A stretch of DNA of 64,000 nt from Albidovulum sediminicola (GTDB lineage Bacteria; Pseudomonadota; Alphaproteobacteria; Rhodobacterales; Rhodobacteraceae): NCBI RefSeq assembly GCF_025751575.1, contig NZ_JAOWLA010000001.1, positions 1-64,000 on the forward strand, read 5' to 3'. The notes beneath the pieces were generated by a model. The model did no database searches. It had not been told where the DNA came from and was given only the letters and a program-made list of their open reading frames with translations. The translations under genes were made by a program, and so were the position numbers. Below are positions 53,409-58,209 of the stretch, in pieces (position 1 is the first letter of the stretch; each line of letters begins with the position of its first letter).

Positions 53409-55817
53409 TTAGCCGCGCAGGCTTCCGCCCGTGGCCTTGGCGACCTTTTCGACGATCTTCGCGCCAACGGCCTCGATCTCCTCGTCGGTCAGGGTCTTGT
53501 CGCGAGGCTGCAACCGCACCGTGATGGCGAGCGATTTCTTCCCCGCCCCCATCTGCGCCTCGGCCTTGTCGCCGGTGAACTGGTCGAAGACCCGAACCTC
53601 TTCGATCAGCGCCTTGTCGGCACCCTGGGCGGCGTTGACCAGCGTCAGCGCCTCAACCGAGGCATCGACGACGAAGGCGAAATCGCGCTCGACCGCCTGC
53701 AGGTCGGAGATCGCCAGCGCCGGGCGCGTCGCGGTCTTCACCTTCGGGAAGGGCACGCGCGCGACTTGGATGGTGAAGGCGACCGCGGGCCCCTTCACGT
53801 CCATCTCGCGCAGGATCTTCGGATGCACCTCGCCGAAGGTGCAAAGGACGTTCGGGCCAAGCCCGATCACGCCCGACCGCCCGGGATGCCACCAGCCCGC
53901 CACCTTGCGGTTGATCTGGACCTTGGCGGGCGCGCCAAGGGCGGCCAGAACCGCCTCCGCATCGGCCTTGGCATCGAAGACATCGACCGCGCGGCGCGAC
54001 CCGAACGGGTCACGCGGGGCCGATGCGCCGACCAGAAGGCCCGCGGCCTGCACCTCCTGCTCGCCCGGCTCACCACCGGCGAAGGCAGGGCCAACCTCGA
54101 ACAGCGCCAGATCCATGAACCCGCGCGCCTGGTTGCGCGCCGCCGCCTGCAAGAGCCCCGGCAGAAGGTCGGGCCGCATATGCGTCATCTCGGAGGAGAT
54201 CGGGTTTTCCAGCCGCGTCGCCTCCGACCCGCCGCCGAACAGCGCCGCCGAGGCGCTGTCGATGAAGGAATAGGTCACGCATTCGTTGTAGCCCAGCGCG
54301 GCCAGCGTCCGGCGCGCGGCCTTTTCGCGGACCTGCATCGGGGTCAGGATGGGTTTCGGGACACCGGGCCGGGCGCGCCGCATCGGCTTGCCCACCAGCT
54401 TCGTCAGCGAGGCGATCCGCGCCACTTCCTCGACCAGGTCCGCCTCGCCCAGGATATCGGGGCGCCAGGACGGCGGCGTGGCCATGTCGGCGGCCAGCGT
54501 GAAGCCCAGCGCCTCAAGCGTAGCGCGCTGGGTGGCTTCGGGGATCTCCATGCCGACCAGGCTGACGACCCGCGCGGGGTCCAGCCGGTAGGCGCGCGTG
54601 GTGTCCGGGACCGCGCCGTCGACGACCACATGACTGGGCTCGCCGCCGCACAGGTCAAGGACCATCCGCGTCGCAAGCTCCAGCCCCGGCAGGGTGAAGG
54701 CCGGGTCCACGCCGCGTTCGAACCGGTAGCGCGCGTCCGAATTGATCCGCAGCGCGCGGCCTGTCGTGGCGATCGTGATCGGGTCCCAATAGGCGCTTTC
54801 AAGGAAGACATCGACCGTGTCCTCGGTGCAGCCCGAATGCTCGCCGCCCATGATCCCGGCCAGGCTTTCCGGCCCCTGGTCGTCCGAGATCACCATCATG
54901 CCTTCGCGCACGCTGTAGGTCTTGCCGTCCAGCGCCAGCAGTTCCTCGCCGCCCTTGGCGGGGTGGATGCGCAGGTCGCCCCTGACCTTCGCCACGTCGA
55001 AGACATGGAGCGGACGGTTCAGCCCGAAGGTGAAGTAGTTGGTGATATCCACCAGCGCCGAAATGGGTCGCAGCCCGATCGCCTTCAGCCGCGCCTGAAG
55101 CCAGGCGGGCGAGGGGCCGTTCTTCACGCCGCGAATGGTGCGCCCGGTGAACAGCGGGCAGCCCTTGTCCTTCAGGGCCGCGTCGATGACCACGCCCACG
55201 GGGCTGTCGAATGTGCCCGCGACCGGATCGACGCTCAGCGGCTTCAACGTGCCGAGGCCGCGCGCGGCCAGGTCGCGGGCGATGCCGCGCACGCCCAGCG
55301 CGTCGGGGCGGTTGGGGGTGATCTTGATGTGGATCATCGGATCGACCGCGCCGGGACGGTTCGCGGCCAGCCAGTCCACGAACTTCTCGCCCACCTCGCC
55401 CGAGGGCAGCTCGATGATGCCGTTGTGTTCGTCGCTGAGCTCCAGCTCGCGTTCCGAGGCCATCATGCCGTGGCTTTCGACGCCCCGGATCTTGCCCACG
55501 CCCAGCGTCACGTCGATGCCGGGGACATAGTCGCCGGGCTTGCACAGGACGACCGTGATCCCCGCCCGCGCGTTCGGCGCGCCGCAGACGATCTGCTTTT
55601 CGCCCTCGTCCGTCATCACGCGGCAGACCCGCAGCCGGTCGGCGTCGGGGTGCTGCTCGGCATGGAGCACCTTGGCGAGCGTGAAGGTCGAAAGCCGCGC
55701 GGCGGGGTTCGAGATCTCTTCGACCTCCAGCCCCAGATCGGTCAGCGCCTCCGCGATCTGATCCACCGAGGCGGTGGTGTCGAGGTGGTCTTTCAGCCAG
55801 GAGAGGGTGAATTTCAT
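53409..55817 (-). CDS. pheT: Phenylalanyl-tRNA synthetase beta subunit
   Basis: 802 residues, the normal length. It starts [18 protein letters not shown], followed by the tRNA-binding EMAP-like domain (about 40-150), the B3/B4 editing region (about 215-375), the B5 module, a degenerate synthetase core and the C-terminal FDX-ACB domain ending about residue 800. The ATG at 55817 overlaps the stop of the inserted gene upstream (ATGA). The beta subunit recognises tRNA-Phe and edits mischarged tyrosine. Confidence 0.97.
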   Translation of the reverse strand: MKFTLSWLKDHLDTTASVDQIAEALTDLGLEVEEISNPAARLSTFTLAKVLHAEQHPDADRLRVCRVMTDEGEKQIVCGAPNARAGITVVLCKPGDYVPGIDVTLGVGKIRGVESHGMMASERELELSDEHNGIIELPSGEVGEKFVDWLAANRPGAVDPMIHIKITPNRPDALGVRGIARDLAARGLGTLKPLSVDPVAGTFDSPVGVVIDAALKDKGCPLFTGRTIRGVKNGPSPAWLQARLKAIGLRPISALVDITNYFTFGLNRPLHVFDVAKVRGDLRIHPAKGGEELLALDGKTYSVREGMMVISDDQGPESLAGIMGGEHSGCTEDTVDVFLESAYWDPITIATTGRALRINSDARYRFERGVDPAFTLPGLELATRMVLDLCGGEPSHVVVDGAVPDTTRAYRLDPARVVSLVGMEIPEATQRATLEALGFTLAADMATPPSWRPDILGEADLVEEVARIASLTKLVGKPMRRARPGVPKPILTPMQVREKAARRTLAALGYNECVTYSFIDSASAALFGGGSEATRLENPISSEMTHMRPDLLPGLLQAAARNQARGFMDLALFEVGPAFAGGEPGEQEVQAAGLLVGASAPRDPFGSRRAVDVFDAKADAEAVLAALGAPAKVQINRKVAGWWHPGRSGVIGLGPNVLCTFGEVHPKILREMDVKGPAVAFTIQVARVPFPKVKTATRPALAISDLQAVERDFAFVVDASVEALTLVNAAQGADKALIEEVRVFDQFTGDKAEAQMGAGKKSLAITVRLQPRDKTLTDEEIEAVGAKIVEKVAKATGGSLRG

Positions 55818-56410
55818 AGTGGGGCTCCACCGATGTACTGAAGTGCAAACTGAAGCAAGTATGCGGAACCAAGAATGATTAGAGCCCACGCGGCCCAATA
55901 AACAATACTCGGGAACCGCCGAACGGTGAAGAAATCAACCATTCGCCCAACGCTTTCATCGCATCGAACTGACGCGATGAACGCCGCTCTCTGATTTAGA
56001 TAGATGCAGTCGAGCGTGATTAGCTCTTTCGCGCCGATGTACGGAATGTTGACAAGGCATTTCCCAGACTCAACGTTTTCATAAGAGACTTTCTGCGGAG
56101 GGTTTATAGACACGTTCCGCGGAAAGTGGCTAAGCACCACGCTCACATCTTTGGCTGCCCTACGCCCTTCATTCAGCACAAAGAACTGCTCATTGTATAC
56201 TTCCAAGAGGTTATCGGGCTGAGGCGGCTCCGCCGTCTTGTCCGCAAGATTCAGCAAGTGAAGACTGGCATGCGCACGACCGAAGACGAGTTTCGGGCGA
56301 ACCCGCAAGAGATAAAAGATGAACGCTCCGAGTAGCGAGAACAGCAGCCCGGTAAACTGGGCGCCATTGCCAAGCACAAACTGCCAAATCTGGTCTAGCA
56401 GAGTACTCAC
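55814..56410 (-). CDS. Unknown membrane protein gene embedded between pheS and pheT
   Basis: 198 residues from a GTG that overlaps the pheS stop (GTGA); its TGA overlaps the pheT ATG (ATGA). Both junctions are 4-base overlaps, so it is translated within the pheST operon. An N-terminal hydrophobic helix (about 18-36) is followed by a soluble, probably beta-rich domain (about 40-160) with [15 protein letters not shown], and one or two C-terminal hydrophobic helices (about 168-190). It has only one or two cysteines and no catalytic motif I recognise. The bases are visibly poorer in G+C (27 of 60 in 56041-56100, against 40 of 60 in 56461-56520 within pheS), which suggests acquisition. Confidence 0.85.
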
Positions 56411-57489
56411 CTACTCAACCCCCCCGCGACCGTCGGCATGTCCAGCGCCGCGAAGCCGTAGTGGCGCAGCCAGCGCAGGTCGGACTCGAAGAAGGCGCGC
56501 AGGTCGGGGATGCCGTATTTCAGCATCGCCAGACGGTCGATGCCCATGCCGAAGGCGAAGCCCTGCCACTCGTTCGGGTCGACGCCCGCCGCGGCCAGGA
56601 CCTTGGGGTGGACCATGCCGCTGCCCAGGATCTCCATCCACTTGTCGCCCTCGCCGATCTTCAGCTGGCCGCCCGCCCAGGAACAGCGGATATCGACCTC
56701 GGCGGAGGGTTCGGTGAAGGGGAAGTGGCTGGCGCGGAAGCGCAGTTCCACGCTGTCGACCTCGAAGAAGGACCGGCAGAACTCCTCCAGCACCCATTTC
56801 AGGTTGGCCATGGAGATGTCGCGGTCGATCGCCAGCCCCTCGACCTGGTGGAACATCGGCGTGTGGGTCTGGTCCATGTCCATGCGGTAGACCCGGCCCG
56901 GCGCGATGACGCGGATCGGCGCGCCTTGCGAGGCCATGGCGCGGATCTGCACCGGCGAGGTGTGGGTGCGCAGGACGTGGGGCGGGCGGTTGTCGCCCTC
57001 TGCGCGCGCCATGAAGAAGGTGTCGTGTTCCTGCCGGGCGGGGTGTTCCGGCGGGATGTTGAGCGCGTCGAAGTTGTGCCAGTCATCCTCGATCTGCGGG
57101 CCCTCGGCGACGGCAAAGCCCATGTCGGCGAAGATCGCGGTGATCTCCTCGGTCACCTGGCTGACGGGGTGGATGGTGCCTTGGCGGCGCGGGCGGCCCG
57201 GCAGGGTGACGTCCAGCCATTCGGCCTTGAGGCGCGCGTCAAGGGCGGCGTCGGCAAGCCCCGCCTTCTTGGCCCTCAGCGCGGCGTCGATCTCATCCTT
57301 GAGGCGGTTCAGCGCGGCGCCAGCGGCTTGACGGGTGGCCGGGTCCATCTGCCCAAGCTCCCGCATTTTCAGGCTGATCTCGCCCTTCTTGCCCAGCGCC
57401 GCGACGCGCAGATCCTCCAGCGCGCCCTCGTCGCCCGCCGCGGCGATCCCGTCCAGATATTTGCCCTTCAGCGCGTCCAAACCGTCCAT
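56407..57489 (-). CDS. pheS: Phenylalanyl-tRNA synthetase alpha subunit
   Basis: 360 residues. The N-terminal coiled coil (about 1-85) binds tRNA, and the class II catalytic core shows [50 protein letters not shown] and [20 protein letters not shown] as motifs 1-3. The ATG at 57489 begins [11 protein letters not shown]; upstream frame residues are non-conserved. Its stop overlaps the start of the inserted gene. Confidence 0.97.
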
Positions 57490-57562
57490 CTCTCGGCCCT
57501 TCGAAAATCCGGGCTCCGTGCTACCACAGGAGCCTCCGATTGCAAGCCGCCGAGCGGCGGCC

Positions 57563-57606
57563 GCCAAAACAAAACCCCGCGGCGCCTTTCCGGCACTCGC
57601 GGGGTT
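57563..57606 (-). terminator. Terminator after rplT (minus strand)
   Basis: On the minus strand AACCCCGCG and CGCGGGGTT form a 9-base stem around a 16-base spacer, followed by TTGTTTTGG. It lies between the rplT stop (57631) and pheS (57489), separating the two operons. Confidence 0.7.
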
Positions 57607-57630
57607 CCGACTGTCCCTCGGAGAGAGGAA

Positions 57631-57993
57631 TTACGCGAGCGCGGCCTTCGCCTTTTCGACGATGGCGCCAAACGCCGCCGGCTCATGCACGGCGAGATCG
57701 GCCAGAACCTTGCGGTCCACTTCGATGCCGGCCTTCGAAAGCGCGTTGATGAAGCGCGAGTAGGTCAGCGATTCGTCGATGGCGCGGCAGGCGGCGTTGA
57801 TGCGCTGGATCCAGAGCGCGCGGAAGTTGCGCTTGCGCGCCTTCCGGTCGCGGGTGGCGTATTGCTGGGCCTTGTCGACGGCCTGCGTGGCGGTGCGGAA
57901 GTTGCGCGAACGGGCGGAGTAGTAGCCTTTCGCCTTCTTGATGACCTTGCGGTGACGGGCGTGGGTGACGACGCCGGATTTAACGCGGGACAT
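57631..57993 (-). CDS. rplT: 50S ribosomal protein L20
   Basis: 120 residues. L20 signatures are clear: [29 protein letters not shown]-type start (basic, RNA-binding N-terminus), then [18 protein letters not shown] and [26 protein letters not shown]. It starts assembly of the large subunit. It follows rpmI by 15 bases. InfC, which often heads this operon, is not adjacent. Confidence 0.97.
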
Positions 57994-58008
57994 GGGTCAG
58001 TCTCCTAA

Positions 58009-58209
58009 TCAGCGGTTATACGGCATGTATTTCTTGACGATCTTCGCGTCGGCATCGGCCAGGAGCATCGTGCCCGTGGCCTTGCGGACGAAGTCCGTCG
58101 AACGCTTGATCATGCCGTGACGCTTGCCGGCGACACCCGCCTTGACGCGACCCGAGGCCGTCATCTTGAACCGCTTCTTCGCGGCCGATTTGGTCTTCAT
58201 CTTGGGCAT
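58009..58209 (-). CDS. rpmI: 50S ribosomal protein L35
   Basis: 66 residues. The chain begins [17 protein letters not shown], and ends with KYMPYNR, typical of L35. GGAGATGAAAT precedes the ATG. First of the rpmI-rplT pair. Upstream (58210-58449) I see no gene, only the likely promoter. Confidence 0.97.

Follow-up and report, generated by a model that had tools for sequence, protein, structure and literature searches.

Bacterial defence hotspots flanked by core genes have been described. For example, in Pseudomonas aeruginosa the left flank of the hotspot cDHS1 is marked by pheS, pheT, ihfA, and merR (PMC10250203; this and the other reports cited below are drawn on in part). Here we describe a slot that lies inside the pheS–pheT operon itself, starting from a 64,000-nucleotide stretch of Albidovulum sediminicola DNA (contig NZ_JAOWLA010000001.1, positions 1–64,000; hereafter the window), in which a gene for a 198-residue protein, called the cargo gene below, sits between the genes for the alpha (pheS) and beta (pheT) subunits of phenylalanyl-tRNA synthetase (PheRS). 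In our reading, this junction is a replacement slot that takes single genes, often of conflict type, and is occupied here by a transmembrane (TM)/beta-sandwich/TM protein that probably acts against phages. We assign this reading a probability of roughly 0.6; the slot itself is well supported.

Like cDHS1, the pheS–pheT slot has fixed core flanks, high turnover, and lower G+C, often without a recognisable mobile element; cDHS1, however, lies beside pheS and pheT, reaches 224 kb (median 26 kb), and holds many multi-gene systems (PMC10250203), whereas the slot separates pheS and pheT and frequently opens with one start/stop-overlapped gene. In P2-like phages and in P4-like satellites, hotspots of similar size (approximately 1–5 kb) likewise show high turnover and are bordered by a pair of conserved genes (Rousset et al., 2022; PMC9122126), and the phage homologues of the cargo family reside in P2-like phage genomes. 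The described P2 hotspot is bounded by gpA and gpQ (PMC9122126), whereas both of these homologues are downstream of tail and baseplate genes, and the pheS–pheT slot belongs to the chromosome and is embedded in an operon. Chromosomal gene-transfer hotspots share fast turnover, frequent absence of recognisable mobile elements, and recombination in the core genes on either side (Oliveira et al., 2017; PMC5635113), but these are general hotspots, and the part of that report used here mentions no hotspot that divides the operon of a two-subunit enzyme at a 4-bp overlap. The TM effector proteins of Pycsar systems (PADLOC model PycTM) provide another likeness, in that slot occupants in three genomes (G023, G046, and G221; G and L numbers denote genomes and loci of our comparison sets) match weakly, with E values of 1e-4 to 4e-3; the cargo protein differs in being unmatched by this profile at E up to 10 and in carrying a beta-sandwich between its helices. 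No description of a pheS–pheT slot was among the matches listed in searches of the open-licence PubMed Central (PMC) literature, and what looks new is the location within a two-subunit enzyme operon, with occupants joined to it by start/stop overlaps.

A much-used slot between pheS and pheT

The cargo gene (55814–56410, minus strand) starts with GTG and is joined to its neighbours by 4-base overlaps, as a preliminary description of this DNA had read directly in the sequence: its start codon shares the GTGA at 56407–56410 with the pheS stop, and its TGA shares the ATGA at 55814–55817 with the pheT start. The same description noted that the gene is poorer in G+C than its neighbours, which codon-position values bear out (0.60/0.37/0.59 in the cargo gene, 52% overall, against 0.69/0.45/0.92 in pheS and 0.70/0.47/0.90 in pheT); the 600-bp bin at 55801–56400 (51.8%) is the lowest among those listed for the window. 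A single copy was found in a search of the host genome. The frame is probably translated, since homologues 17–37% identical to its product are found in further genera as well as on a phage, on a plasmid, and in an island. The features of the locus, all on the minus strand, are as follows.

53409–55817, minus: pheT, phenylalanyl-tRNA synthetase beta (open reading frame (ORF) and homology)
55814–55817, minus: ATGA stop/start overlap of the cargo gene and pheT (sequence)
55814–56410, minus: cargo gene, 198-residue TM/beta-sandwich/TM protein (ORF, structure model, alignment)
55825–55831, minus: GGTGGAG near the cargo 3' end, Shine–Dalgarno-like for pheT, −6.2 kcal/mol (sequence, duplex energy)
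55832–55909, minus: predicted C-terminal membrane helix, residues 168–193, preceded by R164 and R165 (model and hydropathy)
55964–56290, minus: predicted beta-sandwich domain, residues 41–149, with the family motif N80-x-G82-x3-A86 (model, alignment)
56309–56365, minus: predicted N-terminal membrane helix, residues 16–34, followed by R36, R38, K40, and R45 (model and hydropathy)
56407–56410, minus: GTGA stop/start overlap of pheS and the cargo gene, start of the slot (sequence)
56407–57486, minus: pheS, phenylalanyl-tRNA synthetase alpha (ORF and family-wide homology; start at 57486 picked by homology)
56419–56425, minus: G-run in the final pheS codons, Shine–Dalgarno-like for the cargo gene (anti-Shine–Dalgarno duplex, −10.7 kcal/mol)

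Both pheS and pheT were searched for in the same 295 genomes of the family Rhodobacteraceae, and linkage was read in the 95 that were among the best 150 matches for both genes. The core flanks are conserved in most of these, with pheS and pheT linked on one strand in 77 and not so linked in 18. Only three of the 77 linked junctions are bare ATGA overlaps; six measure 54–154 bp, and 68 measure at least 250 bp, extending up to 16.7 kb. Elsewhere in the Alphaproteobacteria, 122 of the 132 genomes with both genes were entered, and their 119 linked pairs are mostly tight, with 36 bare 4-base overlaps, 107 pairs within 60 bp, and seven at 250 bp or more. The ten genomes first left out, being divergent or fragmented, comprise six unlinked cases, two tight pairs (G692 and G790), one junction of about 892 bp (G298), and one of about 677 bp that was read from a partial match (G739), which brings the non-family pairs of at least 250 bp to 8 or 9 of 123. 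In the class, therefore, near-contact is the usual state; filled slots characterise Rhodobacteraceae, although not exclusively. Thus, where the preliminary description had proposed looking for relatives with adjacent pheS and pheT, the comparison returned mostly filled junctions, generally holding other genes, and the cargo gene is one among the occupants of a frequently filled slot, not a lone insertion.

The content of the slot turns over rapidly between close relatives. Within the genus, pheS was found in 20 of 22 genomes and 18 junctions were readable (cut-off genes in G817 and G819 were left unread); 17 of these measure at least 250 bp, and an AT-rich first ORF stands at the exact overlap in 11 (12 with the doubtful L225). 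Clustering by BLASTP (E 1e-3), which left out L238, L239, and L242 as having no or doubtful cargo, sorted 15 first ORFs of the genus into 11 clusters, one of them the doubtful L225. The closest species (G808) lacks the cargo gene although its pheS is 97% identical and the first 300 residues of its pheT are 94% identical. Similarly, Rhodobacter capsulatus strains SP108 and DSM 1710 share 94.6% DNA identity in pheS and 94.0% in pheT, and their occupants are of equal length and each form both overlaps, yet do not cluster together. In Falsirhodobacter, the junction of F. deserti is empty (12 bp) and that of Falsirhodobacter sp. 20TX0035 holds 466 bp. High content turnover, as described for core hotspots, is therefore present both in the genus clusters and in the R. 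capsulatus pair, and occupants have been exchanged between relatives.

The cargo protein is a member of a mobile family

Matches to the cargo protein (E up to 0.01) occur in 6 of 295 family genomes, host included, and in 2 of 22 genus genomes, so that the gene is not the universal family orthologue that would have spoken against a recent arrival. One of the six (G270) was dropped as weak (E 0.005) and without pheS or pheT nearby; the five strongly scoring copies, namely the host's and those of G246, G141, G158, and G283, all stand at the pheS 3' end. In G283 the homologue follows pheS, and pheT is on a separate contig. Patchy presence, foreign composition, and a tight or bare junction in most other alphaproteobacterial families sampled together uphold the earlier suggestion of acquisition into the operon. 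An old, vertically inherited family gene, mostly lost and fast-evolving, would account for low identity and odd composition, and the shared position of the five strong copies is in its favour; we nevertheless regard this explanation as improbable, because the two genus carriers, the host and G802 (Defluviimonas aestuarii by position), have cargo proteins only 26% identical where their pheS is about 90% identical, because G+C is low (0.42–0.52) in every family carrier examined, and because distant homologues are found on mobile elements.

Those homologues were found in three settings. Across the phylum, 3 of 398 genomes match (the host, G356, and G595), and in G356 the homologue lies in an AT-rich stretch whose ORFs have 41–53% G+C against 64–69% in the bordering ORFs and which, holding integrase-like genes (named by eye), is an island. 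The Yersinia phage vB_YenM_324 (Peduoviridae, P2-like) carries a homologue near its right end (E 1e-6), and a relative 53% identical to the Yersinia protein is encoded on a plasmid of Pantoea dispersa that is rich in P2-type phage genes, where it follows baseplate genes and precedes an integrase, away from pheST. Homologues in P2-like phage genomes are a trait of P2-phage cargo (moron) families, and the family of the cargo protein is mobile, with members on a phage of the P2 type, on a phage-like plasmid, and in the integrase island. Pattern scans of genome contigs and, with a pattern from alignment A1, of viral contigs returned no relatives, and tblastn of the cargo protein against plasmids gave no matches.

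Several observations were made beside these homologues. In G141 (L009, 6317–9389), the homologue is split by a transposase-like ORF, and an arginine-deiminase-like gene stands between the broken homologue and pheT (both named by eye). In the AT-rich G356 island, the homologue is directly followed by a 240-residue membrane protein that no Pfam model matches above cut-off (L120, 9278–10000). Near the homologue of the Yersinia phage is a gene that appears YfbU-like by eye (L013, 4718–5296); its product was among 123 proteins scanned, one of which matched the YfbU model.

The membrane anchor, probably beta-rich domain, and C-terminal hydrophobic helices of the preliminary description agree with hydropathy and with an AlphaFold model (mean predicted local distance difference test, pLDDT, 76; predicted template-modelling score, pTM, 0.57), which places helices at residues 3–14 and 16–34, eight strands within 41–149, and a helix at 168–193. 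Besides the start, N80, G82, A86, and G181 are invariant in nine aligned members. The domain-facing side of both membrane helices is basic (R36, R38, K40, and R45; R164 and R165), and basic flanks mark the cytoplasmic side of membrane helices under the positive-inside rule; the beta-sandwich domain is therefore probably cytoplasmic. That the 198-residue protein has no known motif was likewise the outcome of Pfam, NCBIfam, PADLOC, and PHROGs searches, which gave no match at E up to 10. Among the 50 matches listed in a fold search, only weak beta-sandwich matches appeared (best E 4e-4, template-modelling score, TM-score, at most 0.45), including carbohydrate-binding modules, mu-adaptin, and a TRAP subunit, and given this weakness function was not read from the fold. 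The best viral fold match was an uncharacterised 168-residue protein (E 1e-6).

Predicted expression and exchange of occupants

Expression of the cargo gene is predicted to be tied to pheS through the overlap and a Shine–Dalgarno-like run in the pheS tail. Such a run passes −4 kcal/mol in 98% of 43 exact-overlap junctions and is stronger with cargo than without (mean −8.8 versus −6.5), with the caveat that the 43-row class behind the percentage and the means includes the misplaced L168 (bare pheT overlap) and L185 (YrhK gene). Among cargo genes that overlap pheT, 15 of 20 have a Shine–Dalgarno-like site just ahead of the pheT start (interior controls, 25%), and the window cargo has both sites. 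In most other alphaproteobacteria, the start of pheT falls inside or just behind the pheS stop, and a ribosome-binding-like G-rich run lies in the last pheS codons. In many Rhodobacteraceae a foreign ORF has taken over this start position, its GTG overlapping the pheS TGA and the pheS-tail run remaining usable; in the tightest cases the cargo ends with its own Shine–Dalgarno-like site and ATGA, which would leave pheT translatable, and the essential operon would provide steady expression. A cargo gene placed in the translation relay of an essential enzyme would need no promoter for its expression, and damaging the slot would come at a cost.

A place between the two subunit genes and predicted translation together with them would also suit a protein that modulates PheRS or translation, perhaps as a membrane tether for PheRS, and the preliminary description had entertained a role in modulating translation. 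We do not favour it and consider it very improbable, as the occupants of the slot come from many unrelated families, close relatives lack the gene, the phage and plasmid homologues lie away from pheST, and the G283 homologue follows pheS while pheT is on another contig.

The slot raises the question of how genes unrelated to one another could have been fitted to a single, exact base. The simplest account would be that the conserved pheS and pheT sequences act as arms for homologous recombination, by which occupants are swapped. Among the host genes is a GTA_TIM gene of gene transfer agents (E 5.5e-147), and in Rhodobacterales the homologues of R. capsulatus gene transfer agent genes are well conserved (PMC9836097). 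A dedicated mechanism that recognises the pheS 3' end and places or swaps whole ORFs at GTGA, in effect an integron-less gene-cassette system in which the family would use the essential operon as a socket for expressing one immune or conflict gene each time, seems rather unlikely. An integron cassette was considered because of the motif GTTGAGT in the pheS tail and was rejected: the cargo stop overlaps the pheT start, leaving no room for attC (borders judged by eye). GTTGAGT reads as pheS codons ahead of a start.

Contents and function of the slot

The contents of the slot were tallied in 74 fetched family junctions (G141 among them) and in 80 named pheS loci, two sets that overlap in species and whose counts are not additive; first ORFs were called mechanically, and G292, L225, and L242 are among the possibly spurious calls. 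In 24 of 74 junctions the start of the first ORF coincides exactly with a 4-base overlap at the pheS stop, and 20 of these ORFs are AT-rich; among the 80 named loci there are likewise 24 such ORFs, 21 of them AT-rich. The 20 of the junction set have a median G+C of 51%, compared with 63% in the pheS end, and 8 of them and 7 of the 21 (named loci) also form the ATGA overlap with pheT. The AT-rich exact-overlap genes are distinct in composition from GC-matched occupants. The occupants represent many unrelated families, with predicted membrane helices frequent among them.

A scan of 123 proteins (115 junction ORFs and eight others; G204 and G141 ORFs were left out) gave a Pfam tally in which 25 of 32 families are listed. 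It includes YrhK (10), DUF2513 (8), ASCH (8), BLUF and glutamine amidotransferase (two each), and Fic, HepT-like, NTP_transf_2, addiction-module antidote, and Rhodanese (one each); esterase-like and cupin genes are further ordinary occupants. Within the genus, occupants include PemK/MazF, HIRAN, and SMI1/KNR4, the last at 24.9 bits, just under the cut-off of 25.4. The PADLOC scan of the same 123 proteins, made without a background set, gave few and mostly weak matches, the strongest to PDC-S09 (1.1e-15); a G221 occupant matched PDC-S23 and PDC-M59B. For DUF2513, no description was found in the open-licence PMC literature.

Given the mobile relatives of the cargo protein and the conflict-type genes among the slot occupants (PemK/MazF, sub-cut-off SMI1/KNR4, HIRAN, Fic, HepT-like, antidote, DUF2513, and the weak PycTM matches), the cargo protein would most likely be an inner-membrane conflict protein directed against phages or other genetic rivals. 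Several findings weigh against the slot reading as a whole. YrhK, ASCH, BLUF, esterase-like, and amidotransferase genes are common in the slot and are not conflict genes, and the cargo protein itself lacks a PADLOC match at E up to 10. In 54 of 74 junctions the first ORF is something other than an AT-rich exact-overlap gene, and the pheT-side overlap is missing in the nearest slot homologues, those of G246 and D. aestuarii. Of 92 junctions that lack cargo of this kind, 87% reach the same threshold for the Shine–Dalgarno-like run, so the site is independent of cargo. Spacing between rplT and pheS varies from 101 to 4336 bp (49 loci; 57486–58209 in the window, with named loci L137–L216), while rpmI–rplT spacing is constant at 11–16 bp (47 loci); flexibility thus extends to the region upstream of pheS, and part of the junction variation may be regional. 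Finally, the pheS genes of D. nitratireducens and R. capsulatus are 0.96–0.98 identical in the last 60 nt and 0.69–0.90 in windows along the gene, a modest rise that is suggestive only as a sign of recombination or of co-transfer of the tail with cargo.

Part of this evidence would fit a tolerant, functionally neutral insertion site, open to any short gene that preserves pheT translation, where the cargo need not be a conflict gene. The ordinary occupants (YrhK, ASCH, BLUF, cupin, esterase-like, and amidotransferase genes), the variable rplT–pheS spacing, and the missing PADLOC match are all compatible with such a site, which we hold to be possible though somewhat unlikely: the AT-rich exact-overlap occupants differ in composition from the GC-matched ones and turn over between close species, toxin–antitoxin and SUKH-like genes are among the occupants, and, outside the slot, members of the cargo family occur on a phage, on a phage-like plasmid, and in an integrase island. 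A fixed address whose foreign gene differs among most of the examined genus species amounts to a catalogue of candidate conflict genes, which could be collected with primers placed in conserved pheS and pheT.

Individual junctions show further arrangements. In Rhodobacter sp. SW2 (G111; L130, 388–1519), pheS is followed by a gene akin to the AT-rich occupants of L139 and L171, then by ORFs that resemble, by eye, a RelE/HigB-type toxin and a HigA-type antidote, and then by pheT on the opposite strand. The slot of G221 (L114, 282–2635) holds six small ORFs, including an AbrB-like (by eye) and Doc-like pair, as well as a two-TM protein that weakly matches PycTM. GC-matched genes that are ASCH-like by eye and in the tally occupy the junctions of G284, G231, G196, and G039 (L101, L106, L077, and L094), which suggests that such genes are older residents beside the foreign occupants.

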